Assembly (NCBI GenBank): GCA_016748015.1
Contig: JAAOMT010000349.1
Span: forward strand, 2,812-66,811
Reading direction: 5' to 3'
DNA length: 64,000 nt
DNA from: Geosiphon pyriformis
Lineage: Eukaryota > Glomeromycota > Glomeromycetes > Archaeosporales > Geosiphonaceae
The notes under the pieces are model-generated. The model searched no databases. It was not told the DNA's origin and was given only the letters and a program-made list of their open reading frames with translations. Numbering within the stretch: position 1 is the stretch's first letter; each line of letters opens with the position of its first letter. Of this stretch, positions 4,440 to 62,345 are shown one piece after another. Position numbers and translations under genes: made by a program.

Positions 4440-4640
4440 GCACTCATTCTGCCGAATGTCTGTTTTCACTTATGGTCTATAACATGAATTGTTATACCTC
4501 TGTGCATGTACCCATTCTGCCGAATGTCTGCTTCCACTTATGGTCAATGACATGAATTGTTATTTAACCTCTGTGCTTGCCGCATTCCAGCTAAATGTCT
4601 GTTTCCACTTATGGTTAATGATGTGCATCATGGGTTAAAC
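4440..4640. repeat. Tandem repeat, ~60-bp unit, about 3 copies
   Basis: A unit containing CATTCTGCCGAATGTCTG, then CACTTATGGT, a TGAATTGTTAT stretch and ACCTCTGTGC recurs about three times with small changes. The inverted copy carries the same array at about 20,930-21,180 with about four units, so copy number differs between the two arms. Confidence 0.75.
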
Positions 4641-4759
4641 TGTTCCTATCTACTATCTAGTGAACAGCAAAATCGGCAGGAAAAGAAGACCCTATTGAGA
4701 TTGACTCTAGTTTGATACCAACAATTGACGGATAACCACTGCTTACCAATGATACGCGA

Positions 4760-5040
4760 ATTCAACATTCGAACAACCATCACCCATCAATAATACATGA
4801 ATTTAACCTTCGAATATAATTACCACCAACCAATAATTAACAACTCAACATTCGAATATAACCACCACCAAGCAATAATTCACGAATTCAACCTTCAAAT
4901 AAAACCACCACCTACCAACAATTGCCGAATTCAACATTCGAATAATCACGCCAACCTGTAATGGGCGAATTCAACATTCAAATATAATTAGCACCCACCA
5001 GTAATTCGCAATTCAACATTCGAATAACCAATAAATACGG
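4760..5040. repeat. Tandem repeat, ~45-bp unit with ATTCAACATTCGAATA core
   Basis: Units of an ACCACCAACCAATAATT-like stretch followed by GAATTCAACATTCGAATA recur about six times. The equivalent block in the right copy (about 20,650-20,815) is shorter, with about four units. Confidence 0.7.
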
Positions 5041-6081
5041 AATAGGAATTCATGAACAATTGATCATCAAATAACTGAATTAAATTTTAGGGTTTGTTAG
5101 TCTGTTTTTTTTGCCTTGCAAGAATAAGTAGTGGGAAGAGGGTAGTTTAAGATTTCTTACAAGAATAAAGAATGGGAGGGGGGTAGTTTAAGATTTCTTA
5201 CAAGAGTGAAGAGCGGGAGGGGGTAGCCATATTTGTCAATTATCTTTTCTATATCCATCTAGTCTATATAGGAATAAAACTTTATCAGTATATAACAAAG
5301 TTATCAGGGAAGGGTTTTTACAATGGCAAAATTGTTCACCCGTTGCCAATTCTGATAAACTCTTGTTATTTACTGTTTATTGTTTAAGCCTATTGAAATC
5401 TAATTCAGAAATTTGAAATGATCGAAATAAAATATTTAAGAAACTTAATGTATAATAAACTATTGTAATTAATAAAAGTATTTTTAAATGATAATAGTTC
5501 GGTAATAACTTTAAGAATTGCTAATATTAGCTTAAGTCCAAGCAATAATAACTTTATTTTCAAACCACTGATCAAATATCCTTGAGACCTTTTTTACGCA
5601 AGTTCGGATTTAAATTTTAAAATTAGGTAATATTGAGCATGGTAAATATTTTTTTTCACCGTGTAAAACAAAAACCCTCTGCTCTTACTATAGAAATATA
5701 TTAATTTGATCAGCACGAATAAAAAATTTTATGGTCATTATTAATTTGGAAATATTTTATGTCCAGAAGTTTTAAATGAGAAAAATGTGAGTGTTTATTT
5801 TTAATGAAAACCAAATTTTATTGGGATTTGATAATTTTATTTTAATTTGCCTCAAATTAAATCCACGCTGAATGCTTTTTCAATGAAGGCAAGGCCAAAA
5901 TATTTTTTTAATTATTTCAATTTTTTGAACCTTTTCATTAAAAATTAAATTTATTTAAAAAATCGAATATTCATAAATAAATTAATTAAAAAAGGCAATA
6001 GACAATATATCCAAATAAATATTTTCTAGAAAAATTTAATTATCGGGATTAAATTTAATTTGATAGTAAAAAAAATGGCCA

Positions 6082-19527: not shown

Positions 19528-20639
19528 GAAATCTTAATTATATATTTCTTTCATCAAATTTAGAAAGTATCAAAAATAATTTGTGCATTAAAAAAATCAC
19601 TTTCGCATAAATAAATAAAAATAAAATATTTTTGTTAAAGAAATATTGTGGAATTTTAATTAATTGAAACGAGACTTAATTTTAAAGATTTAGATATTAG
19701 ATTTTATTTAATAATAAAACGCTCGTCTATTTGATTCAAGCATTATTGCGTGTGATCGATTTTGACAATAATATCCTAAGATACATCAAAGTCCTCACTT
19801 GAGCATCAAAAACTTTTGATAACTCCCAAGTAATAAATAAAGGATGTATTGAATGACCAGACTGAACATGATTTTTAGCAAGTACATTTACTCAACATTG
19901 TTTTTCGAAAATGCTAAATTTTTCATTCGTCGTTGATCAAATTAATACATTTCGATAGCAAGGGCAGAGGGTTTTCGTTTTACACGGTGAATATGTATAT
20001 TAAGCATGCTCAATATTGTCTAAACTTTAATATTTAAACCCGATATTAGATCATCAAATAAACGAAACTTGCGTATAAAAGGTCTCGAGAAGTATATTTG
20101 ATCGATGGTTTGAAAAATAAAGTTATTATTGCTTGGACTTAAGCTAATATTACCAATTCTTAATGTTATTACCGAACTATTATCATTTAAAAATACTTAT
20201 ATTAATTATAATAGTTTATTATACATTAAGTTTCTTAAATATTTTATATCGATCATTTCAAATTTCTGAATTATATTTCAATAGGCTTAAACAATAAACA
20301 GTAAATAACAAGAGTTTATCAGAATTGGCAACTGGTGAACAATTTTGCCATTGTAAAAACCCTTCCCTGATAACTTTGTTATATACTGATAAAGTTTTAT
20401 TCCTATATAGACTAGATGGATATAGAAAAGATAATTGGTAAATATGGCTACCCCCTCCCGCTCTTCACTCTTGTAAGAAATCTTAAACTACCCCCCTTCC
20501 ATTCTTTATTCTTGTAAGAAATCTTAAACTACCCTCTTCCCACTCCTCATTCTTGCAAGGCAAAAAAACAGACTAACAAACCCTAAAATTTAATTCAGTT
20601 ATTTGATGATCGATTGTTCATGAATTCCTATTCCGTATT

Positions 20640-20825
20640 CATTGGTTATTCGAATGTTGAATTGCAAATTGCTGGTGAGCATGGTTATTCGAATGTTGAA
20701 TTGCGAAATACTGGTGGGTGATGGTTATATTTGAATGTTGAATTCGTGAATTATTGGTGGGTGGTGGTTATTCGAATGTTGAATTCGTGGATTATTGGTG
20801 AGCAGTGGTTATCCGTCAATTGTTG
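20640..20825. repeat. Tandem repeat, TTCGAATGTTGAATT unit, about 4 copies
   Basis: GGTTATTCGAATGTTGAATT followed by a variable GTGAATTATTGGTGGGTGGT-like spacer recurs about four times. This is the complement of the array at 4,760-5,040 with fewer units. Confidence 0.7.
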
Positions 20826-20929
20826 GTGTCAAACTAGATTCAAGCTCAATAGGATCTTCTTTTCCTGCCGATTTTGCTGTTCACTAGATAGTAGATAGGA
20901 ACAGTTTAACCCATAATGCACATCAATAA

Positions 20930-21180
20930 CCATAAGTAGAAACAGACATTTAGCTGGAATGCGGCAAGCACAGAGGTTAAATAACAATTCATGTCATTGA
21001 TGTAAGTGGAAGCAGACATTCGGCAGAATGGGTACATGCACCGAGGTAAAAAAATTCATGTCATTGACCATAAGTGAAGCAGACATTCGGCAGAATGGGT
21101 ACATACACAGAGGTATAACAATTCATGTCATAGACCGTAAGTGAAAACAGACATTCGGCAAAATGGGTGCATGCACAGTG
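20930..21180. repeat. Tandem repeat, ~60-bp unit, about 4 copies
   Basis: Units with CATAAGTGGAAGCAGACATT-like sequence, GCAGAATGGGTACATGCAC and AGAGGT recur about four times, complement of the array at 4,440-4,640. Confidence 0.75.
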
Positions 21181-22082
21181 GTTAGAGAACACCACATTTG
21201 GCGATATAAAGGAGTTGGAAACCCCGTGCTTGGTTGAGTTTCTTTGGTTAAGGTTGGGATTCTTTCCAGTAAAGGATGCCCCCCTCCCTCACCCAACACT
21301 TAGAGCTAGAAGAGATACATCAACACCCTTACCTGGATTGTTCTATCAACTAGAGGCTTTTAACCTTGGAGACCTGCTGCGGTTATCATTATGACTCGGA
21401 ACGAGAATGAATCTCTCTTGGATTTTTTTAGTGTTCTTTGAATTTGTGAGTTATGAGTAGTGAGTCGTTAATTGTACTAGTTATAGCTGTTGGGTTCATG
21501 AGTTGGTGGACGCCGGTAATTCGTCGTCGATAAAGATAAAAGTAATCCCATATAGGATAAAATTTTGCTTAAAGACAGAGAACACTTCTTTATATTTGTT
21601 ACTGCCTCTAAGTTGTTGTTTTTGCTATCAAAAATATGCGTTTTTTTTTCATGCAAAAACAAGAATCCAAGAATACAAGGGTGGGGTTAACTAATATGTA
21701 GTCATTAAAAACAAAGTGTCACTTTTTGAAACCTTGTAATCAGTTAAGTACTTTCTGGAAATTTTTTATATTATTGTGCAGATCCTCATGACTAATCTAA
21801 TATTAAGCAGATTTCATGATTCATTTTTTTTGACTCGGCTATCCTATATTGGCTAAATACAATCAGTAGGAGAAATCAAATTCACATCCCCCTTAAAACC
21901 GTGTGACCTATATCAATATACTAGACTGAATAATATAAATGGCTACAGCATAAAGAACTTGGAACCGTAAGCATCGTCTATGAATGTTAATGATGATGAC
22001 TCATTTATTTTCTTTTTCACTTATAAAAGTATCATAACTATCAGTATAATTTTATAACCAAAACCAACACCAATACCAATAC

Positions 22083-22136: not shown

Positions 22137-22354
22137 AACTCCAACCTCTAAAGCAAAAAACCCAAGAGTTTTTATACCTTTTCCTTCAACTATTTTATTC
22201 ATTGAGGCTCCATGATTTTGCAAGAAGAGATAAATTTCTTTAATACAAACGAATCACCTATGCCAGTGGTCTTTTTCAGAAAATTTTACTATAATACGAA
22301 AAATGCTGTTTCAAAATGGCTTAATGCCCTCGTCAAAAATGATAACCCTAAGTG

Positions 22355-22868
22355 TATCGAGATTAAGTGACTCTATAAACAAGGCACATATTAAAAATCT
22401 ATCAACACTTATTTTTCTAGCTCAGTCTGTTCAGGAGCAAAAAAAGATCTGGTGAAACGTGTTTTTGCTGCATCTGAGCTTTGTTGACTTGAACTTTTTT
22501 GGCTCTTCCAGCAGAAGTTAGTTGACAAAACTCTAACTAAAAAGACAGCCCATACAATTCGGGATCGAATAGATGATATTCTTCCGCAAAGCAGCACTAG
22601 CGGCGATGTTAAGTCGAAGTCTATACAGAGCGATGATTTAAGCGAGAGCTTTGACGAGAAGAGCAAGAAAGAAGATCTTAAAGGATCACTTGGGAATGCT
22701 ACTGAATTGGAAGAAAGAAACGACGATGATCAGGATGAGGTAGAGGACAATGTCAGTTTTATGGATAAGGGTGCAAAGCTGGAGTTCAAAAAAATATATA
22801 TGGAGATGCATTAAGATACAAAATGGAAGCTGCCATCAGGAAAATATATTGAAGATGTCTTATATGAA
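22355..22868 (+). repeat. Inverted duplication, left arm
   Basis: About 515 bases are repeated in inverted orientation at 24,055-24,570 with few mismatches. The arm contains the 5' coding part of the decayed gene that continues to 23,790. The frames on the opposite strand are shadows. Confidence 0.85.
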
Positions 22869-24054: not shown

Positions 24055-24570
24055 AGTCATATAAGACATCTTCACTATATTTTCCTGATGGCAGCTTCCA
24101 TTTTGTATCTTAATGCATCTCCATATATTTTTTTTTGAACTCCAGCTTTGCACCCTTATCCATAAAACTGACATTGTCCTCTACCTCATCCTGATCATCG
24201 TCGTTTCTTTCTTCCAATTCAGTAGCATTCCCAAGTGATCCTTTAAGATCTTCTTTCTTGCTCTTCTCGTCAAAGCTCTCGCCTAAATCATCGCTCTGTA
24301 TAGACTTCGACTTAACATCGCCGCTAGTGCTGCTTTGCGGAAGAATATCGTCTATCCGATCCCGAATTGCGTGGGCTGTCTTTTTAGTTAGAGTTTTGTC
24401 AACTAACTTCTGCTGGAAGAGCCAAAAAATTTCAGGTCAACAAAGCTCAAACGCAGCGAAAACACGTTTCACCAGACCTTCTTTTGCTCCTGGACAGACT
24501 GAGAGCTAGAAAAATAAGCGTTAATGGATTTTTAATATGTGCCTTGTTTATAGAGTCACTTGATCTCAAC
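24055..24570 (-). repeat. Inverted duplication, right arm
   Basis: Reverse complement of 22,355-22,868. Read on the minus strand it gives the same decayed 5' coding segment, including the same TGA after VFAAFELC and the same TAA in the MEMH-DTKW stretch. The stops therefore predate the duplication or were copied by conversion. Confidence 0.85.
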
Positions 24571-25135
24571 ACACAAGAAAATTTTAAATTGAAAATTAAT
24601 ATATAATCTAACAACAATTAGCTTTTTTATGCTCCAAAGTTTTTACATATTTTTATCAATATAGTTTAAACATTTCAAATCTACAATCAAAAACCCAAAA
24701 ATAATTGGTATTATTAATTTACAATATTAAGCTATTTAAATCTAATTATTTAAATTACCAGCTTCTGAAAAATAACATGCTTCAAAATGAAATTAACAAG
24801 CCATTCACAATTGAACCAAATGAAGTTAAATATTAATAAACATAAGACCCAAGAATTTGGCACTAACAGGTCATTTTACAATCTCTGTAAATACAATTCT
24901 TAATTCTCAAAAAACTCCACCAAATTTTGAAACTTTCTTAAATAATTACTATTCCCAACATTTTATTTAATATATCAGATATTGGAAGTATACAATACAA
25001 TATTTTTCAGCATGAATTACCCCAAATTATACCTAATTTTACAGAGATTATTGAACATTTCCTAAAGCCAATAACCCTTCCCATATCTGAAAACTATCAT
25101 TTACAAACTGAGAAACTTTCCCAAATCAACCGGGA
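24571..25135. other. AT-rich DNA before the Tc1 relic
   Basis: Probably includes degraded 5' transposase sequence of the element at 25,140, but no frame is readable. Nothing else seen. Confidence 0.4.
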
Positions 25136-38469: not shown

Positions 38470-39085
38470 ATTTTTAATTTTATTTATTTATTTAGCTATA
38501 ACTAGTAATATATATTAATTACTAATATCATTAGTTAGTCATTCTATTTTAAGAAGTTGTTGTTAATATAATTATTAACCAAATTTTTAATGTAATTACT
38601 GATCTGAGTATTAATTTTTTTTTAAAAATATATAAATAAAACTTTCTAAAGCTGTAAAAAAAGATTTACACTCAAATTAAATTTATTTAAAGCAAAAATT
38701 AAAACAATAATATTAACTTTTTTGTTTTTTTATTATTATTATTTTCTCTTTTTTTGATTTGTATAATTGTTGATTTTTGTTAAGTATATTAAATAAACAT
38801 TTATTAAAAAGTATAACTAATACTTAATATTAAATTTTAAAAATACTAACATAAAATATAAAATTATATTAATGTATTATTTTTTATTAACAATATAAAC
38901 TATTTTTTACTTTTAAATTTTTTTGTTATCTTTAAAAAAATAGCAACCAAGATATTTATAAAACTAATTTTACATATTAAATTTTTATTAATTTAATTTA
39001 TTTATTAAAGTTGAATTATTTTTTAATTATTTTTATTATTATATAATATTATTACTTCTTGTTATTTTTTAATATATTATTTTAG
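38470..39085 (+). repeat. LTR-like repeat A
   Basis: Aligns along its length with 44,250-44,885 and more loosely with 62,765-63,480. The block at 38,948-39,085 is nearly identical in spacing to 44,747-44,880. After it, AGATTATCAAATC near 39,115 could be a mutated primer-binding site, since similar sequence follows copy C. Confidence 0.65.
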
Positions 39086-44249: not shown

Positions 44250-44885
44250 AATTTTTTATTTATATACTTAGCTATAGTTAATTATATGTATTAGTTATTA
44301 ATATTATTAATTAGCTATCTTATTTTAAGAAATAGTTATTAATATAATTATTAACTTGATTAATAATTTAATTATTGACTTAGTTATTAACTTGTTTATT
44401 AACTCGATTATTGATCTAATTATTAACCAAATTATTAATATAATTATTTATTTAATTATTAATTTATTTTTAAGAATATATAAATTAAATTTCTTAAAGT
44501 TGTAAAAATACATTTATATTTAGATTAAATTTATCAATACAATAATATCAACTTTTTTATTTTTTTTATTGTTTTTTTTTAATTTGTATAATTATTAGTT
44601 TTTGTGAAAAATATTAAATAAAAATTTTAAAAATAATTTATATTATTAGTATAATTTTATGTTTTATATCAATATTTTAGAATTTAATATTAGATATTAA
44701 TTGTACTTTTTAGTAAATATTTCGTTATTTTTAAAAAAAATAACAATTAAGATATTTATAAAACTAATTTTATATATTAAATTCTTATTAATTTAATTTT
44801 TTATTAAAAATAAATTATTCTTTAATTATTTTTATTTTTATATAATATTGTTTTTTTGTTATTTACTAATATATTATATTTAACT
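44250..44885 (+). repeat. LTR-like repeat B
   Basis: Direct copy of repeat A. Contains a run of short ATTATTAAC/T-type units (44,330-44,465) also seen in copy C, then a TATA-like ATATATAAATT and the AAGATATTTATAAAACTAAT block. Confidence 0.65.
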
Positions 44886-45448
44886 ATAATAGTAATATAA
44901 AAAAATTAATAATAATGTAAAATAATATATAAAAACATATAAGAATATATAATAATAAAATATAATTAATAATAACAAAAAATATTAAGCTTTTAAAAAC
45001 TATTTTATAAAATTAAAAATATGATATATATAAATAATTTAACTTAAAAAAATCAAGAAACAAAAAAACAAATTCAAGTTAAATTAAAATAAACAGAATT
45101 TTATTTTCATTTTATATTTTTATATTTTTAATATATTTTTATAATTATTTATAAATTAAATCTTATTTTTTTATTTAAAAACTCTTTTACTTTTTTTTAT
45201 TTAAAAATCAGATATTATTAATATAATATTTTTAAAATAATTATTTGAATTAATAAGTTTTAATTATAATTATTAAAAAATATTAATTTTTATTTTAAGT
45301 TTTTTTTTATTACTTTTTTTTAAAATTATTGATTAGCTTAAAAAGCTAAAAGTAAAATAAGAATGTAATTTAATTGTTATAAAAAATTATTTAAAATAGT
45401 AATAATCTGATAAAAATTTTTAACAAAAAAATAATATAAAGTATTATA

Positions 45449-45463
45449 AATAACAGATTTTTT
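45449..45463. repeat. Candidate target-site duplication, 3' side of ORF1-only unit
   Basis: AATAACAGATTTTTT here matches AATCACAGATTTTTT at 47,655-47,669 in 14 of 15 positions. The two sites lie exactly at the edges of the G+C-richer ORF1-only unit. Confidence 0.6.
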
Positions 45464-47654
45464 TTTATTAGAGTTTAGGCTATACTACATTGAAACATTA
45501 GAAGAAAACTTACCCAAAAATAACATCTTTTGGATAACAAGAAACAAAGTTACACTATAAGAAACCAATCCAACCAGCTATTCAGCTGTTTTCAAGATAT
45601 CAGCTTTAACATTAATAGGCTCATGTTCCCAAAAGGACATCAAGTTAAAAAACACCTCATCATCCAAACCAACTGAATGCTCTGAATTGCCAAACATATC
45701 AATATCTTCCATGCAGCATTCTTTTTTTAAAGAAACCACTTCCCTTTCTAACTTACCAACAATCTTACTAAAAAAACTTATATGTACTATAACCTTATTG
45801 ATCTTAAGGCCAAGCTTACTGCTTGAAACCAAATCTCTATTAATAAATTGCTTAAACAATTTGACCAAGAAACCAACTGGTTTAACAATAGACTCAACCA
45901 AAACAGAAAGCTTGATCAGATCAGATTCCAAAGAAGCCAACCAAGAAAACACCAAGAAATCACTAATAACCACAGAAAGAAAAGTAGGAGCCACCAGGGG
46001 AGAAAACTCAGAAGAATCCAGGAAAGCAGAAGCTTTTACATAAGAAACACTATTCACAAAATGTGTTTTAAACACCTTAAGAGTCTTAAAAAGGGAAGGC
46101 AAAGAAACTTTGCAGTCAACAGCCAAATGACTCACTTCTTAACATCTAAAGCATTGCCGACAACCAGGAGTTTTTCACCAAATATAGCATTTTCTTAAGG
46201 TACTAGTTTTGATAACTGTAGAGTCCAAATTAACTTGAGAACCAAATGTAATCAGAGCAAACTGGAAACAATGACCAGAATCAGGTAAACAAGAAATAAA
46301 ACAAGTTTGGCCACCAACCTGGGAGATCATATCACTAATCTCAAAGACAGTACAACCAGAAAGAAGATTAACCAATTTGGCCTTGAACTGATTATAAAAC
46401 AAAATTGTCTCATTTTGATTTATAAGAGGAAGAATGTGAACACTATCTTTGCCCACCAAAATTGACTAGTGATTAAGAGCAGAAGCAACAGCATCCAATT
46501 CTTTAAAGTAAACAACCACATATTGCCAAACACCAGCAGACTTTAGCACTACATAAGAAACTTTACCAAAAACACTAAGAGCTACACTTCCAGAGGCATA
46601 TCTTATAGCACAACAGCAGCAGAAAAAAAACTAAACTCAGAAACCACCAAAAACTTGGCAATTTTAAGAGAAGCAAGGTGAACAGAGCTTGTAAGCTCAA
46701 CCAGAAAAGCAGTGTTCAAAGAACTTTGGGAAGCAAATTCCACACAAAACAGCTTCATATTGTCTTTTAATACTGACTTTGCATCCAAAAAACCATGTAT
46801 TGATTGAAACTCAGTCTTAATATAAGCCAATTTGATCTTGAAAGTAGCACCAGGCACCAAAGTGGAGGCCACCCACTCAGCAAACTTTTGACAACTAGAA
46901 ATAGTTTTCCAGGCACCACCAGAAATAGCACCAAAAACAAAAGAAAAAAATGATTCAGTTTTCATTTGATTACTCCAGTTCTCAAGAACAGGTGACCCAA
47001 TAGGAGAAGATTGTTTTGCTTCCAGAACTAGCAAAAATCTGCCAGAAAACACCATATTTGGCAACACAGCCAGTGGTTAATCTTGGTCCATCTTAGATAA
47101 TGTGCCAAATGATGCTATGAAGATCTCATCTAAGATCTCATTGGGAACCACAAAGGGATTCGGTGTAACAATAGCAGAGGCAAACAACTGCTCCCATTTT
47201 TCTGAACTTTTGGTCTTTTTGATCATTTTTTTTGAAAAGGAGATGCTAGAAACACCAGATGTTAAAGCTATAAAGGGGAATATCAGCTTATTAACTGGTC
47301 TATTATTAAATACTTTTGGGCTCTTAGTAAGGGTGGAGACAACACTGGGACTAATCTAAGTGTGTCTTTTTAAAAGAACTTTGACTGGTAAAAAACCAGC
47401 CAAAGATGAGGAAGTTGCTTCAGTAGCTACTAAAAGCAGCTTTTCATGAGTACTGGGTAAAAGAAAGGCTTCTAAAACGTTCTGTCTAGTTGCTTTGACA
47501 ATAAAGAGAGTTTTTCTGATTGAAATTTTATTAGATATTTCAGAACAGATATCAGGTGCAGCTTTTTTACTCTTTGCTTTGGTCATAGTCATAAAATTAA
47601 GAAGACAAAGAGTTTTTTAGTTGTGTTGTTTTTCAGGTTTAACTGTATTTAAAA
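45464..47654 (-). mobile_element. ORF1-only LINE-like retroelement ('half-LINE')
   Basis: A ~2.19 kb minus-strand unit of higher G+C than its surroundings. It runs from just upstream of the ATG at 47,592 through one ORF1-type frame to a stop at 45,578-45,580, then ~115 bases of 3' sequence, ending in an A-rich tail (AATAAAAAAAAA read on the minus strand). A 15-bp near-perfect direct repeat flanks it. There is no ORF2. Ordinary LINE copies lose their 5' end, not ORF2, so the layout with ORF1, tail and target duplication points to a complete non-autonomous element mobilised by another LINE, like mammalian HAL1. A degraded relative lies at 61,380-62,345. Confidence 0.65.
45578..47592 (-). pseudogene. 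LINE ORF1 protein gene, interrupted
   Basis: Homologous along most of its length to the ORF1 at 48,918-50,879 though clearly a different subfamily. From the ATG: a Lys/Ser/Thr-rich start (TMTKAKSKKAAPDIC), a Ser-rich linker (SPSVVSTLTKSPKVFNNRPV), a middle region, an RRM-like domain ending SAGVWQYVVVYFKELDAVAS, then a stop, GKDSVHILPLINQNE, a zinc knuckle CFRC-x-EVSHLAVDC (CX2CX4HX4C, its fifth position a TAA stop), and a C-terminal helical region with SIVKPVGFLVKLFKQF. Lesions: TAG 47,356-47,358, TAA 47,077-47,079, a shift near 46,600, TAG 46,466-46,468, TGA ~46,173, TAA ~46,140. Most are of the kind produced by C-to-T or G-to-A change. Such proteins bind LINE RNA as chaperones. Confidence 0.75.
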
Positions 47655-47669
47655 AATCACAGATTTTTT
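47655..47669. repeat. Candidate target-site duplication, 5' side of ORF1-only unit
   Basis: AATCACAGATTTTTT; 14 of 15 positions match 45,449-45,463. Confidence 0.6.
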
Positions 47670-48761
47670 AACTTATTATACTTAGTTAATTTACCAAAAT
47701 TATAAAAATTTATATAATTAATTACTTATATTGTAGTTTATTAACTATTAAATTAATAATATTTATTAGTATTATTAATTAAAATTTTCACAAAATTATT
47801 ATCATGTTTTATTAACTTAAATATCTATTTAGTCTTAATATTAAGCATTATAATAAGTAATAAAAAAATTCAGATTTTAAGTTATTAATTACAATTAAAA
47901 TCAAAAAATAATAATTGTAAACTGACAATTAATTTTATTTTAACTATTTTTAAAAATATTAAATTAATTATTATATTTTAAATTTTAAAAAACACCGGAT
48001 TTTTTTATTATTTTACTTTATAAAAATATACAATAAAGTTTTTTAATTTTTTTTTATAAATATAATTATTTTTAAAATAATTTGTTTAATAACAATTATT
48101 AAAATAAAATATTTACAACTTGAACTTTGATAAATTATTTAATAAAACTATTTTTAAATAAAAAAAATTTATTATAATAGTGTATATTAATATCAAAATA
48201 GGTTAATAAATTATTAAGCTTATTTTTAATTATAGATTAATAAATAATATTATTATAAACCAATTTATAAATCAAATAAATTACTAAATTAATTAAGCTG
48301 TTAATGTATAAATTATTATTATTTATACAATTATTAAAACACTAATTAGAAAAATTAATAATTTTTTTTTAAAATTAACATAATTGTTTTTTTTTATTTA
48401 AAGCAAATACTATATATTTATTTAAAGTATTCAAAAACTTAAATTTAATATATAATAATTAGTATATTTAAATATTAATAATCTATAATTATTTTAAAAC
48501 AACTATTTTTTAAAAACAATTTTATATTAAATTTAAAGATTTTATTAAACAATTTATTTTAAAAATACATAATATTTTTTTGACTTTTAATTACTATATT
48601 AAACTGCTATTATTTTTAATTTTAAAAACAAAAAAAGAAAAACAATTATTTAAATATTAATAAAATTAATAATAATATTAACTCAATAATTTGCAAAAAA
48701 TATAATAAGCAACTTTTATTTATAAAAATTTGTTATATTTTTACTAAAAATAGAACAAAAT
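47670..48761. other. Very AT-rich DNA between two LINE insertions
   Basis: No gene or recognisable repeat. Probably the same decayed material into which both G+C-richer elements inserted. Confidence 0.5.
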
Positions 48762-48917
48762 TATTTGTGACAAAAAAAAACAAAAAAACAAACTTTTCTC
48801 TCCCGTTGATCCCCTGGTCACAACGAAAGCTTTGAGTCGTCACTGAAATAGCCTTTCTTTTCCCTTTCCCTTCACCTTTCTCCAGTTATTTCTTCAGACA
48901 TTCCCCTTTTTGTGGCT

Positions 48918-50879
48918 ATGGAACTGGTGGGCTTTGCTGCTGGTGGTTCTGAGTCCATTTCGGCTGGATTGGGGATCTGGTCTGGTGTCAAAAATAAGCG
49001 TTCAGTTGGTCCTCAATCTTGCGGTGCATCCTATAAGAAGCCGAAGAAACCTGTGGCGGTTGACGGTTTGGTGGAGTCGTCTGCTGGTGTCTCGAATGTT
49101 ATGGATGAGAGTGATGACGGACCTAATATTGGGCGATCGTGGGCTAGCGAGGTTAACAGTGAAGTGGACAGCGTAAGTGGCGTCTTAGACTTGGATAACT
49201 TGGAAAATGTCGTCGCTAAGGAAACTAGCTATGCAGAGTTGGATGTTTCAGATTTGGACGACGACATGAACAATGCCATGCCAAGGAAGACATGTACCCG
49301 CACTTATGTTCTGAACAGTAAGCTGCTACCTCTCTCTTTCAACGTGCTAAGTAATGGTGAAGACACTCTGCCTCTTCTGAGTCCTAAATTTTGTGAGTCC
49401 AATCACTTTCCTCCAGTCGGGTCACGTGCTCCAGAGAAACGGAGTTTTATTTTGTCAAAATTGTTTGCATTGGATATTGAGCTATCTGCTATTCCTGGCA
49501 AAACTATTGGTGATAAGTTGGTTTGTGTGAAAAAAATTTTTTATCAGGTTGATGGTTTTGGGGGGGCTTCGACTCCCTCAAAATTTCCTGGAATAATAAG
49601 ATCATCATTTACATCTGAGAAAAGTTTGTTTAAGGTGAGGGAAATGGCAATCAGTGAAAAAATATTGGTAAATGATAATCTAAAAAAAGTAAACAGCCAT
49701 TCAAATTGGAAGGTGATCATCAAGGAAATCTCAGTAGATCTTCCCAAATCGGCAATTGAGGCAGTGTTTTTCAAGTTTGGCAAGATTGTTTCAATTAAAG
49801 TGCAGCTTATTGGTCTTTGGCAAAAGGCCCTGGTGGAATATGAATCATCTGAAATGGCTGATTTGGTCGCAGCTAGATAGTCTGTGCTCATGGGAAAGGA
49901 TTCTGTCCGCATGGCAAAGGCAAATATTGATAAACAAATATGGGTATCAAGGAATCAGCATTAGGCTTTGCTCTATACTCTTCCAGTTGGCACCAATGCT
50001 CATGATCTCTCCAGTTTGTTGGAATCTTATGGTGAGAAGACTTGTTATATCGGCCGTAACCCTAGTTCATATGTTTGTGATAGATGTGCTGTAATTTGTT
50101 TTGGTAATAAGGCATCCAAGTTGGCTGCTATTGGTACCATTCCAGTTTTCAGAAATGTGAGTTTGCATTGGGCTGGTCTTTCTTTGGCCAGTTGTGCTCA
50201 TTGTAAACAATTCAGTCATGTTTCAGTCAACTGTTCCTTGGGTGAGTATTCTGGTGTTCGAAAAAAGAGGGTGGTTTCTGAGCAAGATCGGGTTCGTCTA
50301 GCTGGGATATATAAGAGGAAGTCGGCCCTTGTCGCTCGTTCAGTTTCTTTTGGTGGAAAGATGTGGGCCCAAGTGGCAGGCCGTTCTCCCTCTTGTGTTG
50401 TCTTTTTGGGTGCTCCTAGTGTCAGTTTGGTCTCTGGTTCAAAGGCTTTCTCAATGGATTCCTTCTCGTCTGGTGCCACTGATCTAGGTGGTCGCCTAGT
50501 TGTGCTGGAACGCTCCGTGGAAATTCTCACAGACCAAGTTTCACTTATTTTAAAGAAATTAAGTTTCATTGACTTGGTGCCATTGGCACCTTTTCTCTCA
50601 GCTCTTCTTTTGGTGTCTCCAACTGCCGTTGTTTCAGATATGAACTCAGGTTTGGGTTTGGATTTGGATAGCACGTTGTTGTCATCTACCTCTTCTTCTC
50701 CCAATGTTGGTGGGTTGGTTGTTGATTTCAGTCCGAGCAGTTCTAAGGTTTTGACTGCCAAGATTGGCAGTTTGGAGTCGAATATGATGACTCTTGAGGC
50801 TTCAGTTCACTTGGTCTTGGATAGATTGGATCATCTGCGTTCTGGATCGGATTTGTTGGTTTTTCCTCCATCTCAATAA
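48918..50879 (+). pseudogene. LINE ORF1 protein (RRM-like and zinc knuckle), two in-frame TAG codons
   Basis: ATG at 48,918 starts MELVGFAAGGSES. The frame stays open to TAA at 50,877-50,879 (653 codons) except for TAG at 49,878-49,880 and 49,962-49,964. Order: polar, Ser/Asp-rich N-terminus; a conserved block with ILSKLFALDIELSAIPGKT; an RRM-like domain (WKVIIKEISVDLPKSAIEAV to KALVEYESSEMADLVAAR); the first TAG; GKDSVRMAKANIDKQI; the second TAG; and a CCHC zinc knuckle SCAHCKQFSHVSVNC at about 50,190-50,235. The C-terminus is rich in Ser/Leu with heptad-like segments (SLESNMMTLEASVHLVLDRL). It is expected to bind and package element RNA. The first stop sits at a position where all four ORF1 copies in this window have a stop. 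Confidence 0.85.
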
Positions 50880-53800
50880 GTAGTTTGGTTTGGAAATTTG
50901 CTACGTGCAACATTCGGGGTATCAATGTTCCTGTGAAGCAAGCGGATGTTGTTTGTTGGCATGTGAGCTCGGGAAATATGGTTTTTTTTATCACTGAGAC
51001 TAAGTTGAGATCCTCTTCTGGACTGTGGATAAAGGATAAATTTGATGGAGTGCAAATATTTTCTTCTGGCTTGGATAAGGGTTTCATGGGTGCTGGGGTT
51101 GCAATTGTTATGAACACTTCTTTGGCCTGTCATGTATCTAAGGTGAAGGAGATTCCTGGTCAGGTTATTTCTGTTCGACTCCTGTTTAAGGGCAAGCTTT
51201 CAGTTACTGTTTTGGGATTGTATGCTGGTGCCTCCTTTGGGGCTAAATTTGGTCAGGCTTCTGAAGTTAACACCCTCATTGCAAAGGCAGTTAACTCCAG
51301 CAATTTTGTTATCTTGGGTGAGGACCTTAATGAGAATGGATCTGGTAGAAGTGCTAGTTTCAAGTTTTGTTTGAGTTTAGGTTTGGTCAATTTATTTGTT
51401 GGTCATCATTTGGCTAATTCTTATACGTGGAGCAATTTGAGAGGGGTTGGGAAAACAATTGATTACATTTTTGTTGGTAGTAATTTGTTTACTGCTGTTG
51501 CTGGCCATCAAGTTGTCTCTGTTTCAGATTTCTTTGACACTGATCACAAGGCTGTTGTAGTTTCAGTCAGTTTGGGTGGACTTTTAGATGTACAATTGAA
51601 CAGTTTGTGCAAGCAGGCAAATAAAAATTGTTGGAAGTTCAAAATCAAGAATGCTGACTGTGTTGGATGGGCTAAGTTTAAGGATCTCTCATCAGCTAAA
51701 CTTTTGTCTTTGGGTAAGGTGTTCTCTAGTGCCGAAATATGTGGTGATGTGGATGCTATGTGGACAGTTTTGGTGGGAGCTGTGGTGGATTCTGCTGATG
51801 TGACATTTTTGAGGCATTGGTTTAGTGAATTCAAGTGTTCGAAAAACAAACATTTTTCTAGGTTTTTTGGTCTGGAATTGTTGGTGGCCAAGATTGTCAA
51901 GAAATTTTGCTCTGGTGACTTGCTGGGCACTGATTGTCTTGTGAGTAAATGGTCGACTCTGGATGACACAAAGGCTCGTGCTTTCAAGGACTTGGTTGGC
52001 TCAGATGTTAAATCTGATATTGTTGTTAGGCATTTGTCATTGGTTTGCAGAGATTACAGGAGGTCGAAGATATTTGAGTCAAGGTTGGCTGAGGAAGCTT
52101 TGGTTAGGAAGACAATTGAGAAGCACATGGATAATTTCTGTTTGGATAAGGGTAGTATGATCAGGAGTGTGTTGGAAAAGTCTTTTTGCAAGGTTGTGTT
52201 GGATCACTTGATAGTTGATGATGATCTGGTTTTGTTGCCTGAAGAGGTGAAGTCCAGTGTGGATAGAATAATGGAGGGGTGGACAAGGAAATGCTCTGTG
52301 CAGTCAGTGCTTCTTGGTCTTTGGGCTCATTAGTACGCGCCTTTGGACTATGTTCAGGATGATGCTTTTTCAGGTGTTATGAGTGCAATCAGTATGGGCG
52401 AGTTACTTTCTGTTGTTGGTGGTCTTCTTGATGGCAAGACTGCTGGTTTGTCTGGTGTTCCTAATGAGTTATGGAAACATGGTAGTGAGGTGGTTTTGGG
52501 GTGCCTGTTGGCGCTGTTTAATAAATGTTTGTCTGGTGGTGTGGTGCCTGTTTTGTGGAAGAGGGCTTGGGTGTCAATGATTCCTAAGCCTTATGACTGG
52601 GATGGAGTTCTTACGAACACTCGGCCCATTGCTTTGATTGAGACTGCCAGGAAGATTCTTTCCAAGATTCTGTCTGACCATATTTCAATGGCTTGTAGCA
52701 AGTTCAATGTTCTTCAGAATGACAACTTTTCGGTGCTGAAAGGTACGTCAATACAATCTCCAGTGTTTGCTGTCGGTTCGGTAATTAAGAATGCCATTGA
52801 GAAGGATAGGGAGTTATGGTTGGTCTTGCAAAATATGCGGAAAGCTTACGATTCAGTTGGATGGCATCATTTAAGAGCTAGTTTGTGGCGTGTCAAGATG
52901 TGTAAGAGGTTCATAAAGTTTTTTGGTGGTATTCATGAGGATAGAGTTAATAGGGTGATGACTGACTTTGGTTTGTCTGGTAGTTATAAGGTGCATGATG
53001 GGCTGGACCAGGGTGAGGTCTTTTCACCACTTCTTTGGAGAATTTTTTACGATCCGTTTTTGTGTGAGATTAAAAGGCATGAACAATTGTGTGAGTACCG
53101 GATTGATACTAAGTTTGTTTCAAAATCTGGCAGAATTGAGGGCAGTGGTGGTTTGACATCGTATTTTTCGGCTGGTGCGTTTGTCGATAATATAATCTGG
53201 GTTGGAAATTGTCAGGCTTCTACTCAGTATGCTCTGAACATTGCCAGTGAATTTTTTGTGATCAATGATATTTCTATTAATAGTGAGAAGATGATAGCTA
53301 TTCCCATCAATCAGGGCATTAAAGTTGCTTCACTGAACATTTGTGGTCAGCCAATTTCTATTGCCAAGAAAGGGGAAGCACATCGATATCTGGGTATTTT
53401 TCTGTCGACTGAAAAGCTCTCCAAGCCGAGTGTTGCCAAGGCTCATGCGGATGTACGTTTTTTCGTCAATGTTGTGCTTAGAAAGGCTATTACAGACAAA
53501 CAATTCTCCTATCTGGTGTCGGCTGTTTTGCAGCCTATTGTTAGCTATCGTACTCAGTTCAGTTTTGTCTTATCTAATGTTTGTCACAAGTGGGATGCCT
53601 TGGTTAGAAAGAGTCTTAGGTTCAAGACTTGTCTCCCTCATGATTTTCCTGATGCTGCTTTGCATCATCTCTCATTGTATGGCCTAAAGCCTTTTGAGCA
53701 GGTGCAGTCAGAAGGGAAGGTTGCTGCTTTGATGGTGTTCTCTAATGCCTTTGGCATTCTTGGGCATTTGTTTAAACATAGGTTTTTGGACCTACAGGTT

Positions 53801-55562
53801 CTTGGTTGGGCTTCTTTGGATCCTTTGCAGTTTCCAGTCAGGTTGCATGTTAGTCCGGTGAACAAATTTTTTGGCTGGAATGGTGAAGATCTTTCTGAGC
53901 AATGAGCTTACTTTGGTGAACAACCTCCCCACTGTATTTTGTAGTCCTGGTCGGTTTCTGTTGTCCTCTGTTCTTGGAAAGTCTCTGTATTTTGATTCGG
54001 TCAAATCTCTTAAACGTTTTGGTGTCGTTTTTGGTGATCGGCTTTTTGATAAGAAAGGTGTTTTGTTGGATTGGAAAACTTTTCGTCGTTGGAAGAGGTT
54101 GGATCCGCGTGGCCCTGTGCTTCACTGGTTCATGGTTTCTTCTGAGTTTTTGAAAGGTCAGGGTTACTCACTTTCTGGTTCTGTTGGCTTTGCGGAAAAG
54201 CTTGGTTTGGACATTTTGGGGTCTGGGGAATTTTCTGCGGTTAAAGATGGATTGCATGACATTTGGTCAGGCTTTTTTGAAGTTTTCACGGATGGGTCTT
54301 TGAGGAATGCAGGCTCTGCTGAGGTCGTCTGTGGTGCTGCTGCATACTTTTCGGTCTTGGATAAGAGCATTGGTGTCGCTGTTTGTGGTTTTTTGTTATC
54401 TACTATGGCCGAGTTACAGGCTGTCACTTTGGCTTTGGAGTGTGTTCCTTCTTCAAGTACTGTGATGTTACGTCTTGACAGCCAGGCTGCCATTGATGCA
54501 TGTATGTCTGAGATGTCTTTGATTGCCTCTGATTTCCGTAATCAATGCTGGCTGGAAAGGCATCATATTTTCAATTTGGTCAGGGATAAGGATCTCAGCG
54601 TAAGTTGGGTTAAGATGAAAAGACACTCTGGTATTCTTGGTAATGTGAGAGCTGACTTGGCTGCTGGGGCTGCCTCTGGGTCTCCCTTTTTCTTTTGTGC
54701 TGATGTGCATGAACATTTTTTGGTTGCTGAGAGTATCACTGTTTCTGGTAATGCCCATCATTTTGTTAGGAATAATTTTTGATCAATTTGTCATGCTCGT
54801 TGGGAAGCTGGGCCTGGTTATGATGTAGTTCTGGATGCAATAATTGGTTGCATAGACTGGGTTGTCACAGCGAAGGTGTGGCATTCTGATTCTTATATGC
54901 TTGCTGGATTCACTAGTCGCACATCCTCAACGCTTTGCACTTATGTTATGAAGACTGTGCACAGGAGGTTGCCGGTGGCAGTAAGGAAGAGGTTGTATGA
55001 TAAGTGCTACCCTAGTGTGTTGTGTTTGTTTTGTGGTGAGGTGGAGTTCTCTGACCACGTTTTTACTTGTGTTCATGAGTCTGGCATTCGTGGTGAGATT
55101 TTGGCAGAGGCTTCTGCCCGCTGGTCAGCTTTGGCTGGTGGTTCCTCTGCTTCTGCTGTGTTGTGGGTTTTGTTTCAATGTTCCATTGATGTTGGGCTGT
55201 ACACTTTGGTGTGCAAAGGGTTTGTGCTGGAGGAGTGGTATGAGGAGGCTTGCGATGTTTTTGAGGATAGAAAGATGGCCACTGCTCAGATTGTTGATTA
55301 TGTTAGGTTCGTTGTTGGATTACATTGTACTAAAGTATGGTTGGCTAGAGCCAGCCACCAGGTGGTGATGGAGAAGGCTGGTCTGGTCTGTGACGTTGGT
55401 GTTGTTTCTGGGCTTCATTGTGGTGTGTCTTCGGTTTTGTCTGACGGTGTTGTGAGATTGCTTGGTTTGGCCAATTCCTTTGCTGTTAGCTTTGGTTGTC
55501 GGAAGCCTTATTGTTTCTTTTCTGGTCTGGGTGGCAGTGTGTGGGTGGTTATAGATGTGTAG
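50825..55562 (+). pseudogene. LINE ORF2 polyprotein: APE endonuclease, reverse transcriptase, RNase H
   Basis: The frame is open from 50,825 (in -1 phase, overlapping the end of ORF1 by 55 bases) and has no ATG before about 50,978, inside the endonuclease. Endonuclease motifs: FATCNIRGIN, FITETKL, LGEDLNENG, NSYTWSN, KTIDYIFVG, FFDTDHKAV. RT: TAGLSGVPNELWKHG, NTRPIALIETARKILSKIL, MRKAYDSVGW, DGLDQGEVFSPLLW and AFVDNIIWVG, where the second Asp of the catalytic pair is Asn. RNase H: FEVFTDGS, MAELQAVTLALE, MLRLDSQAA, and MKRHSG with VRADLAA, all catalytic residues present. C-terminus: CLFCGEVEFSDHVFTC. Breaks: TAG 52,331-52,333, a frameshift near 53,870-53,905, TGA 54,780-54,782. Confidence 0.9.
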
Positions 55563-55735
55563 TATTGCCTTGTCTGGTCTGAGTGGCTAGCCACATGTAG
55601 AAAGTGCGTGAGTCGCATTTAGTTTGAGCCTCTTAGTTTGGTTCTATGTACTAGATAGTGATTGGGCTGTACTCATTAAATGGGTTAAATAAATAAATTA
55701 CTTGTTTTTACTATAATATTTCTTACAAAAAAAAA

Positions 55736-56350: not shown

Positions 56351-59300
56351 TGACACAAATTTATTTGTAATTATAAAGCTAATTAACAGTTTAATTAGAG
56401 TGGCAAACATTAACAAAAATAGAGTAAAGCATTATTTTGGTACAAAAAAAACCAAAACATATATATTTATATACTTAAGAATTCTAACAAAAAATCTAAT
56501 AACTTATTATTAAATCAAATATTATAAATTTATTAGCAAATTTTTTGCTTATAGATGTGTTAAAAAATAATAATATAAATACATGTGTTTTTAGAACAAT
56601 AAAATTGAAAATAAGAAAGATAGTATTAATAAAATATTTAATATTAAGAATTTGAAAAATATAATAATAAAAAAAATCAGTTTTATTAATATTAATAACT
56701 TTAATAATAATAAGTATATAAATAAAACTATACTTAAAAACATATATGTTTAAATTTACAAATTGAAAAAACCAATTAAAAAATTGTTTTATAATTTTTT
56801 ATATAATGATAAAATTTTTAATCTCGTATTTTTGCTGGTTTTATTTTGTTATCTAATATTTTGGTCAAAAAAAAAATGTTTTAATTTGGTCAAATTTTTT
56901 GTTTTAGATATTAACTTTATGACAGTATTTAATAAAACATTAAATAAAAAACTTAAAAATATTATAATTATTTTTTCAAAATTTCAGAATATTATTTAAT
57001 TAATATTTATTTTAAAGTCTAGTTTAAAAATAGCTAAAATACTGATTATTAATAAAAAAATTCTGGTTAATACTGATTTAAAAAAAATTAATATTAGATT
57101 AAATTAAAAAATTATTATTAAAAAAATCTTAATTGATTGCTTAAATTGGCATTAAAATTAATACTATTTAAGTTTAATAAGATTAACATAATTAAAATAC
57201 AGTTAATTATCTTTGACAAAAGACATTATTTAAGTTTAAGAATATTAAATTTACTAATTTGATTATTTCTAAATAATTAATTTTGTTAAGTAAAAACTTT
57301 ATATGTATAATTAAAGCCAATAATAACAAACAAACATAAAACTTAAAAGACTATTATTGTGTTTTTTTATATATACTATTAATAAATATTACTATTTATA
57401 ATCTTTTAAATTTTTGTTATTATATAATAAAAAAACTTGTTTTATTTTTCATAACTCAGTTTTTTATATATATATATATATTATATTGTTATGTGTTTTG
57501 ATTCTGCTATTGCCAAAAATGCTGTTATTTATTTAATTTCAGTTTTCAAAAATATAAGCTTAAATTAATTTAATTTGTTAATTTCAAAATACACTAAATA
57601 TAGAAAAAGTTGTATATTTTTAGTTAAAATAAAACTCTATTTTTTAAGTTTAATAAAAACTATTTTATGTATATTTATATTAAAAAAAAAATTTTGTATT
57701 TTGTCTGATTTTTTTAATAATATAACTTAGACTTTTATAGTAAATAATAAGATAAAGAATTTTTTATTTATAATCTTTCTTTAATAAAAAATTTAGCCAA
57801 TATGTTTACTAATAGTTTAATAAAAATAGTTTTAAATTCTTATTTAAAAATTCTAACATATTTTTTAGAGCTTTTTATAGATTATGTTTTAAAGATTTTT
57901 TGTAAATTAAATAGCTTTTGTTTTTTATTCTTATTTTTAAGTGCTAATAAATTACTTTTACAAGATATTAATACAGAATTTATTATAATTATTGACAAAT
58001 TATTGCCAACTAATTTAGTTTTACCTAATATAAAGCACATTTCTTCAAATTTTTTTTTTAGTTCCAAAATTTTAATTATTAAAATTAATGGCTTAAAAAT
58101 TAATATTATAATTTTAGAAAATTTAATTAAATCTATTAAAAAAACTTAATTCTTTTTATTTGAATAAAAATTTGATTTTTTTTATCTAATAATTACTTAA
58201 TCTAAAAAATAGTTATATATAATATTAAAGACATATATGTTTTTGTTAAGCATAATATTATTATTAAGTAATATAAGAGTTTAAATAATAATATTTCAAT
58301 TTTTATAAAAATTAAGCTTTGCTTAAGTATTAAATTTTAGATTGTTAATAAATTTGATAATATAAAAATGTTTACTTTAAAACTGAAATCAGGTTTTTGG
58401 AATGTTAATATTATAGTTATTATAAATAAATATTTAGTTAAGTATGTTTTTAAGTTTTTAAAAGTTTTTAATAAATTTTTATTGATTTATTTGTTATTTA
58501 AAAACAAGTAATTAGTTATAGTATTAAAACTATATATTAATGTATTACTAAAAAAGTGATAAAATTAAATACTTATTATTATTTTATTTATATTTAAAAT
58601 ATTTAATAAAAGTATTTTTATTAGTTTGGAAAATAATTTTAATAAAAATAATACTAAATACAATATCAATTTTAGAAAATGCTTGAATTTTGGTTTGGTT
58701 AATTTGTTTTATAAATTTTTGTAAATTTTATAAAATTATTAATTTTATTTTGGTATTACTGTTTTTATATAATGCTATATTAATTTATAATATAATTAAT
58801 ATACAGAAATTTTTTTCAATAAATTATTATGCTATTTGTGTTTTAATAAGATTGAAAAGTCTTTTAATATTGTATTTTACTACAAATTAGATGTTTTTAA
58901 GATTTAGTTTAATAAAATATTATATGTAAAAACTCTTGTTTTTTTCAATTTTCAAGTTTAAAACTTTAAGTTTCTAAGTTACTTAAATATTTAGTTTTAA
59001 TTTTGAATGTAAATTTTAATTAATTTAAAGTTTAATATTATTAGTTTAATTTTTTGTAAAATTAGAAAAGTATATTAAGCCGAAAAGCTTCAAGAATCTT
59101 ATAAAATTAAATTAGATAAGATTAATTTAACTATTAACAAATATATAAAAAACTTTATTAATAACAAAATTACATAATATATATAATATACTAAAATATT
59201 TATTTTACAAAATGGTATTAGATTATTTAATAATTAATAATAAATTTATTTTGGTTTTTAATAAAGTTAAATTATTAGTAAATTTTATTATATAAAGATA

Positions 59301-60400: not shown

Positions 60401-61379
60401 TATTTTGTTGTAAAAATTAACTTTTTACAGAAAATTTTGACTGTAAACTACTTAATAATATAAAAATTTAAAAAAATTTAAAAAATAATAAAATATATTT
60501 GGAAAAATTGTTTTTAATTTAGGCTTAAAAGCATTAAAAATTGTTAAAATTAATAGTTAATAAATTTTAAAATAAGTTTTATTTAAATTAATTTGTAACA
60601 ATTTTTTAAACTAAAATTAATTTAAAAAAAAATAATTCTAATTAAGATACATTTTTTTAAAAAAAACTCTTTTTTTATACAATTTATTTTATAATTAACA
60701 CTTTTTTTTCTAATATTTTAGTAAACTAAAAATATATTTTATTAAATTGCAAGCTATTTTTATAAATTATTGATTATTTTAATAAACTGTTAAGTATTTT
60801 ATTAAATTACTAAATATTTTAGTAAATTTTTTATGTTATATAATTTAAAGTATTGTATAATTTAATTATTATATTTAGATATATATATATTCTGTATAAA
60901 TTAAATTATTAATTAAATAATAATTTGAATAATTTAATAAGATAATAAGTAATAATTTAAAACAATAATATATGTTAATTAATAATTTATTTTCTACTAA
61001 TAACATCAGTTTTTAAAGCAAAATATTAAGTTAATTAAATAAATACTAAATTAATCTTTTGTTTTCTGTTTTTTAGTATTGTTTCTAATAATATCTGTAA
61101 AATAATTTTTAGTTTTTAAAAAATTTTGCTTCTAAGATTAAATTAATTTTAGTTAACTTTTTATTTTATTTGTTGTTTGGCTTTATTGGACTCAAGTTTG
61201 TTTTAAAAAACAATATTAAATTGTTTTATATAAATTTTGCTTTTAAGATTTTTTTAATTACTGTTATTAAAATTGTTGTTAATGATTTTTTTTCTTGATC
61301 ATACTTAAAATTATGAAATCTTTTGTAATAAATTTTGGTTTTTTATTTTTATTGTACTTTATAATATTTTTTTTAAAAT
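60401..61379. other. Very AT-rich DNA, probably decayed element sequence
   Basis: By position this should hold either the 3' part of the decayed LINE or the N-terminal ORF1 part of the following unit; I could not align it by eye. Confidence 0.4.
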
Positions 61380-62345
61380 ATTTTTTATTAATATTAAAAT
61401 ATTTTTAGCATTTTTAGTATTATTGTTTTTGTTAAATTAAAGTCTGTTAACTTGTAATAATATGTTATTATTTATTTTATGACATTTTTTTTATTGCTGT
61501 TATTCTTGATAACTAGTTTGTATTGATGTTATTTTTGGTGACTAGTTTGTATTGATTAAAAAAACAGTATTAAATTTTTTTCTTAGTTAATTAAAAAAAA
61601 TTATTATCTTAAAAAATATTTTTAATACCAAATTAGTTAATTTTTTTTTGGTATACTATTTTTAAGATTAGTAATTTTGTTTTTAAAATTAGTAATCATA
61701 CTTATTTTATTCTTTGTATTTTTAATTTTTAATTTTGTTAATGCTTAGTGTTGTAATTTTTAATTTATTAAAGATTTTAAATTTAATTATTTTTAAAATT
61801 AATATTTTGTGCAAATAGTATTTGATAAAAAATTTTTGAATATTATTATTATTATAAGTATTAGAATTTAAATTATTTTATTTGTAAATTGTAAAATGTT
61901 TTTACTTTTTTTTTTAAGTTTTTTTACAAAATTATCTTTTATTAACTCAAAATTTTATGCTAAAGTTGCTGTTTTTTTGGTTTTTTTATTGTTGTGCTTT
62001 TGTTTTTTTGTTGTTTTATTTGTAATAAATTCTATAATTAAATTAAAACTAAACTTTTTAAAATTTCAGATTTTAAATCTGACTATTCTAATTAAACTTG
62101 TTATTAAACCAATTGGTTTTTTGGTTACTTTAGTTATTTTTCTTTTAATTAAGAATATGCACAAAAATTTTAAAATAAAAAAAACTTATTTATTATGTTA
62201 AATATTTTTTAAAACTTTATTAATCTTTTAGTTATGTATTTAAAAACTTTTTTAATTTTAAAACTAAAATAAAATTTAGTAATCTAAATGTTGATAAAAA
62301 TGATACTGTTAAAACATTTTTTTTAAACAATAATATTATTATAAT
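61380..62345 (+). mobile_element. AT-mutated copy of the ORF1-only unit
   Basis: Aligns with the minus-strand ORF1 at 45.7-46.6 kb rather than with the full-length LINE. Matches include the RRM-like end (AAAGTCTGTTAACTTG near 61,441 against AAAGTCTGCTGGTGTT), the stop-codon region at 61,540, the helical region LTILIKLVIKPIGFLV within the open frame 61,896-62,201 (against LSVLVESIVKPVGFLV), and the acidic C-terminus to about 62,340. As in the better-preserved copy, no ORF2 follows; about 420 bases later an LTR-like repeat begins. Confidence 0.65.
61498..61556. repeat. Tandem duplication, 29-bp unit
   Basis: TTATTCTTGATAACTAGTTT and TTATTTTTGGTGACTAGTTT, each followed by GTATTGATG or GTATTGATT. 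The unit spans the in-frame stop position of ORF1, so this copy carries the stop twice (61,514-61,516 and 61,543-61,545). Confidence 0.65.

Follow-up and report, generated by a model that had tools for sequence, protein, structure and literature searches.

The TRE5-A.2 element of Dictyostelium discoideum lacks all of ORF2 and was shown experimentally to borrow the ORF2 protein of TRE5-A.1, and its activity is close to that of the complete TRE5-A.1 element (PMC5391098). In mammals, the half-LINE-1 element HAL1 (Bao and Jurka 2010, cited in PMC4859970) is ORF1-only and dependent on a LINE. HeT-A of Drosophila, which encodes no enzyme, is thought to depend on TART or TAHRE at telomeres (PMC5537684). 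In stringent-type LINEs such as UnaL2 and ZfL2, the RNA carries in its 3′ tail a stem-loop to which its ORF2 protein (ORF2p) binds (PMC4176376). A preliminary description of the 64,000-nucleotide stretch of Geosiphon pyriformis DNA analyzed here (the window) had compared an ORF1-only unit at 45449-47669 with HAL1; the ORF1-only likeness stands, but HAL1 is not the sole parallel, as HeT-A and TRE5-A.2 exist outside mammals. No description of an ORF1-only element in Glomeromycotina or other fungi was found in the open-access literature text. Our analysis indicates that the unit very probably belongs to an old, ORF1-only, non-autonomous LINE lineage that is mobilized in trans via a 3′ tail shared with LINEs.

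As previously noted, a gene of the LINE-ORF1 type lies on the minus strand at 45449-47669, with an A-rich 3′ end, a repeat matching at 14 of 15 positions at its two edges (47669-47654 and 45463-45448), and neither endonuclease (EN) nor reverse transcriptase (RT) 3′ of its ORF1. The element itself, one member of a dispersed family, occupies 47614-45458 (minus strand, as are all of its parts). It begins with a conserved 5′ end and very short 5′ untranslated region (UTR) (AACTCTTTGTCTTCTTAATTTT, 47593-47614; 424 genome matches at three or fewer mismatches), followed by a 708-codon ORF1 frame (45485-47592) that runs from an ATG at 47592 to a stop codon at 45487-45485. Comparison of this ORF1 with relatives revealed a frame that is not open, with 7 premature stops (codons 78, 171, 329, 381, 478, 490, and 676) before its own stop as well as indels, and it is therefore a pseudogene. 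The “~115 bases” previously placed after ORF1 are mostly its last ~32 codons, behind the premature TAG at codon 676. The positions of the RRM (46211-46369) and CCHC zinc-knuckle (46109-46156) regions were transferred from another copy, L016, where they match PF00076 (E value of 9e-7) and PF00098 (E value of 1e-5), respectively.

A deletion between two AAACT repeats has removed the LINE-type 3′ UTR of the window copy, so that only ~27 nt follow its real stop codon. In relatives the 3′ end reads TAG...CCTAAACT-GGCT...(about 105 nt)...TTAAACT-CTAATAAAA, and the same region also reads TAAACT...TTAAACTCTAATAAAA; the window copy has CCTAAACTCTAATAAAAAAAA at this junction, leaving a remnant of the 3′ UTR and the A-run (45458-45484), with ~105 nt including the stem-loop lost. 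Edge comparison places the 5′ copy of the target duplication, AAAAAATCTGTGATTT, at 47654-47669 and the 3′ copy, AAAAAATCTGTTATTT, which overlaps the A-run, at 45448-45463, the two agreeing at 15 of 16 positions. Between the 5′ duplication and the element lies an A-rich stretch of 39 nt (47615-47653) that is not conserved among copies; extra nucleotides at this position (1 to 24) are often present in other copies. Taken alone, the edge repeat is weakly significant in this AT-rich DNA, since its score of 12 was also reached by the best of 59 mismatched controls, and it is significant only together with the family-wide flank test described below. Among other repeats in the window, a ~550-nt direct repeat (77 to 82% identity; 38478-39033 and 44254-44833) includes a copy immediately downstream of the ORF1-only element. 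Inverted arms of ~520 nt (92 to 97%; 22352-22867 and 24057-24574) flank a spacer of ~1.2 kb and may represent a foldback or terminal-inverted-repeat element, and a large inverted repeat (3716-5731 and 19915-21914; 77 to 97% in several blocks) contains tandem units of ~68 and ~42 nt.

When the assembly containing the window (124.7 Mb in 406 contigs) was searched at the DNA level, scoring was confined to the best of 1399 candidates and gave 41 matches. Both ends were recovered in 26 of 30 loci, with the 5′ end AACTCTTTGTCTCCTTAATTTTATGACC and the 3′ tail TTAAA....AATAAAA set in unrelated flanks, which bears out the earlier suggestion of a family of same-ended copies. Elements are about 2,275 bp long and carry a single 708-codon ORF1 (RRM plus CCHC) and no ORF2. 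The 27-base 5′ end occurs at 424 sites with up to 3 mismatches and at none in a reversed control; copy counts are lower bounds from one assembly, and the copies sampled are the best-scoring, least-mutated, or best-preserved ones. Several nested subfamilies are present, each with its own tail variant. Two family 5′ ends (G000:C357:6051 and 6154) lie 103 bp apart in the same orientation, possibly a tandem or nested insertion. Within the window, similarity searches identified a heavily decayed ORF1 relic (61134-62308, plus strand), nearest to copy L020 and recognizable at 61134-61256 (tblastn, 1.7e-5) and 62067-62308 (blastn, 3.5e-21). The region 61,380-62,345 had been proposed as a second, decayed copy lacking ORF2; it corresponds to this strongly decayed ORF1 relic, whose recognizable parts do not tell whether an ORF2 was present.

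The possibility that genome copies continue into ORF2 was examined at 40 previously unused 5′-end sites, which were probed at +2080 to +2420. The tail lay ~2.2 kb from the 5′ end clearly in 36 copies and weakly in 2, and was absent from 2. No ORF2 was found in sense downstream in any of these 40 copies picked by their 5′ ends, and their sole RT-like match (L101) is on the opposite strand, past the tail. Approached from the 3′ side, type-A/B tails were preceded by the ORF1-only C terminus in 10 of 10 cases, and LINE-variant tails by LINE ORF2 in 10 of 10. Of 22 perfect type-B tails, at least 16 are preceded by a listed 5′ end at a distance of 1.8 to 2.4 kb; therefore, most copies are not 5′ truncated. 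That the unit is not a truncated LINE, as originally argued, is upheld by the fixed 5′ and 3′ ends of the family and its LINE-homologous 3′ UTR, and 5′ or 3′ truncation of a LINE was accordingly ruled out as an origin. ORF1 present and ORF2 absent is the rule in the family, the composition of ORF1-only LINE derivatives; TRE5-A.2 likewise keeps ORF1 and misses all of ORF2.

Target duplications of the insertions measure 8 to 12 bp (for example, AAGTAAGATAAA, ATATATAACAAA, AAGACACAATA, and ATTAATGTTAT). Across 26 copies, the best match between paired flanks averaged 9.69, compared to 7.47 for mismatched pairs, and 300 re-pairings reached 8.27 at best. One copy, L020, is inserted within a decayed LINE endonuclease gene; once the insert and one of the two AAAACTTGA copies are removed, EN similarity runs without a gap over 240 amino acids in a single alignment (E value of 1e-55). 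Target duplications at further copies, which the preliminary description had called for, were thus found in both the flank test and the L020 empty site, and the family shows LINE-type insertion with target duplications and an A-rich 3′ end. Like HAL1, the family is ORF1-only and dispersed, has an A-rich end, and would depend on a LINE. Similarly to HeT-A, it has only Gag/ORF1, is abundant and old, and would rely on the Pol of relatives; HeT-A, however, forms head-to-tail arrays at chromosome ends, whereas ORF1-only copies are dispersed inside contigs with target duplications. TRE5-A.2 differs in inserting upstream of tRNA genes, a targeting not known for the ORF1-only family.

The 708-codon frame and stop position of ORF1 are common to all copies. 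Pfam matches of the protein included an RRM (PF00076, RRM_1) and a knuckle of the CCHC type (PF00098, zf-CCHC); an L1 ORF1 family was not among them. HAL1 has an L1-type ORF1 and relaxed tail use; in contrast, the RRM-plus-CCHC ORF1 described here has its relatives in the LINE ORF1s of this genome, and the shared tail of the family carries a conserved stem-loop. Identity to the ORF1 of the two-ORF LINE in the window is 24 to 27%, and to other LINE ORF1s, including those of LINEs carrying the second tail type, 23 to 31%; those other LINE ORF1s are 34 to 65% identical to that of the window LINE. No two-ORF LINE carrying this ORF1 subtype was found among the top-scored matches, and an unseen parent LINE is possible. 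In this respect the family departs from TRE5-A.2, a direct derivative of TRE5-A.1, as its ORF1 is only 23 to 31% identical to the LINE ORF1s examined. An AlphaFold2 model of the ORF1 protein (ORF1p; mean pLDDT of 43, pTM of 0.25) was left unused, and an ORF1 profile search of solved structures gave no match.

Fixed differences between subfamilies A and B comprised 84 synonymous changes, whereas their own base-change types predict 59.2 (z = 4.0), and differences of L020/L025 from B comprised 80, compared to 51.7 expected (z = 4.8); off-frame controls in the two wrong frames gave z values of −0.9 and −0.8. This synonymous excess, absent off-frame, argues for past purifying selection on the ORF1 protein, at a ratio of roughly 0.5 to 0.6 by simple arithmetic. 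Private changes likewise show some synonymous excess, so the contrast of fixed with private changes was not used. A first McDonald-Kreitman-like count (P = 0.0017) was biased, as codons with two differences had been dropped, and was replaced; raw dN/dS was uninformative, with similar off-frame values, because of transition bias. Most copies are decayed, and the genome search also recovered stop-free ORF1 frames of 713, 716, and 729 amino acids in some copies, so that copies with an uninterrupted predicted ORF1 exist. Among private changes in copies L001 to L030, C>T and G>A predominate, and stops at codons 78, 132, 171, 239, 398, and 478 recur in many copies, a pattern that fits methylation- or RIP-like decay.

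A LINE sharing the 3′ end of the family, which the preliminary description had proposed as a possible source of ORF2, was found in several forms, including an adjoining one. This LINE (48790-55695, plus strand) is of complete length, with ORF1 followed by EN, RT, and RNase H in Pfam searches (PF03372, 1.7e-4, below its cut-off; PF00078, 1.8e-12; PF00075, 1.2e-9), and represents a candidate partner type. Its ORF2 stop codon and 3′ UTR (55560-55694, plus strand) align to the ORF1-only tail, and a 9-bp stem with a 5-nt loop, common to the ORF1-only family, stands at the start of the LINE tail (55571-55593, plus strand). The flanks of the LINE hold AAATTATTTGT at 48758-48768 and AAATTACTTGT at 55695-55705, an 11-bp duplication (AAATTAYTTGT, 10/11 matching), and its 5′ end is preceded by ~23 additional A-rich nt, a layout as in the ORF1-only insertions; as a single case, this target duplication of its own is suggestive only. 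Relics of a second LINE follow on the same strand (56598-58709; ORF1 at 56598-57104, EN at 58197-58709).

Throughout the family, the last ~115 nt from the stop codon on are homologous to the 3′ UTRs of two-ORF LINEs; the family and an autonomous-type LINE in this genome have their 3′ ends in common. This homology extends to 49 LINE tails, which represent subfamilies with ORF2 identity as low as 54%, and a second LINE group has tails 76 to 83% identical to ORF1-only types C and E. The homology sets in at the stop codon, where LINE ORF2 ends in ..TAGTGTTGTCCTGACTGG and ORF1-only type C in ..TAGTGTGTCCTTGATTGG, such that the ORF1 stop codon of the family occupies the position of the LINE ORF2 stop codon. 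Such a junction suggests that all sequence between ORF1 and the ORF2 stop was lost in an ancestor. About ten bases past the stop codon lies the stem-loop (9-bp stem, 5-nt loop). Across 42 distinct sequences, which represent the two LINE groups and every ORF1-only type, 91.8% of stem cells are paired, compared to 18 to 54% in slid registers. Covariation amounts to 35 double changes, and 0 of 500 shuffles reached the pairing or covariation score; the shuffles keep the effect of relatedness, and the slid registers, which remove it, agree. The stem-loop is thus common to the LINEs and the ORF1-only family and is preserved by compensatory changes. A short 3′ stem-loop common to a LINE and its dependent element, to which ORF2p binds in the cases studied, is likewise found in stringent SINE-LINE pairs (UnaL2/ZfL2). 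SINEs, however, have no protein-coding gene, whereas the ORF1-only family keeps a selected ORF1.

A tree built from 96 tails requires four changes of the ORF1-only label (bootstrap range of 3 to 5), and ORF1-only tails sit near both LINE groups, although the 116 columns resolve little; tail exchange between the family and LINEs is accordingly a possibility, not a finding. A single tail origin, indicated by a first tail tree with two sides (ORF1-only and LINE), was dropped once the second LINE group was added.

The unit as we understand it would consist of a ~22-nt 5′ leader, the 708-codon ORF1, the stop codon with ~115 nt of LINE 3′ UTR, and an A-rich tract. ORF1p would bind the element RNA that encodes it; LINE ORF2p would recognize the shared stem-loop tail, nick the target, and then copy the RNA by target-primed reverse transcription. 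We infer such movement and tail recognition in trans as the simplest reading; stringent-type LINEs, TRE5-A.2, and HeT-A offer parallels. The short leader, only ~22 nt and without an identified internal promoter, counts against this explanation. From the stop-codon junction we infer that, long ago, a LINE may have lost ORF2 down to its stop codon and then split into several subfamilies. A bolder version, which we put forward tentatively and consider possible rather than probable, is that an ancient ORF1-only lineage, long independent and with a selected ORF1, has re-matched its tail to the active LINE by following or recapturing tails; in the tail tree, the ORF1-only tails are scattered over several positions amid those of both LINE groups.

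The copies could instead be retrocopies (processed pseudogenes) of host mRNAs from one gene or a few genes domesticated from a LINE ORF1, with no self-sustaining lineage. The very short leader and A-tract are mRNA-like and copies are mostly full length, but every subfamily carries at its end a LINE 3′ UTR whose covarying stem-loop a host mRNA would have no reason to keep, and the several nested subfamilies, their own tail variants, and hundreds of copies also make this explanation unlikely. A related proposal, that a gene family derived from LINE ORF1 was co-opted by the host and spread as a by-product of retrotransposition, has a fungal precedent for large ORF1-derived gene families in the EKA family of powdery mildew, for which host co-option of LINE ORF1 was reported (PMC4641428). 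We consider it very unlikely here, given that ORF1 is retained in full, RRM and CCHC included, the pattern is purifying, and most copies are decayed.

Homology of ORF1 to LINE ORF1s would also be expected of ordinary LINE fragments produced by premature polyadenylation, internal deletion, or 5′ truncation. This explanation is scarcely credible in view of identical 5′ and 3′ ends in hundreds of copies, none of 40 of which reaches ORF2, and of an ORF1 only 23 to 31% identical to that of the nearest-tailed LINEs; with such identity, the copies are therefore not deletion forms of those LINEs. Finally, the ORF1-only RNA might supply ORF1p that two-ORF LINEs also use, as one half of a cooperative split LINE in which neither is simply a parasite. 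ORF1 was apparently long under selection and intact frames exist, but two-ORF LINEs carry an ORF1 of their own, and the selection is explained equally by ORF1p acting on its own RNA; we regard such cooperation as improbable. An ORF1-only lineage mobilized in trans by LINE ORF2p is the explanation we prefer.

ORF1-only LINE derivatives have rarely been described, and why a non-autonomous element keeps ORF1 is an open question. The present family combines hundreds of mostly full-length copies, several intact frames, a signature of selection on ORF1, and a stem-loop link to complete LINEs. Direct tests thereby become possible of tail recognition, of ORF1p cis-preference, and of how tail sharing evolves. 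If tail re-matching were true, the family would represent a parasite or partner of LINEs that codes for a protein and whose tail is modular.
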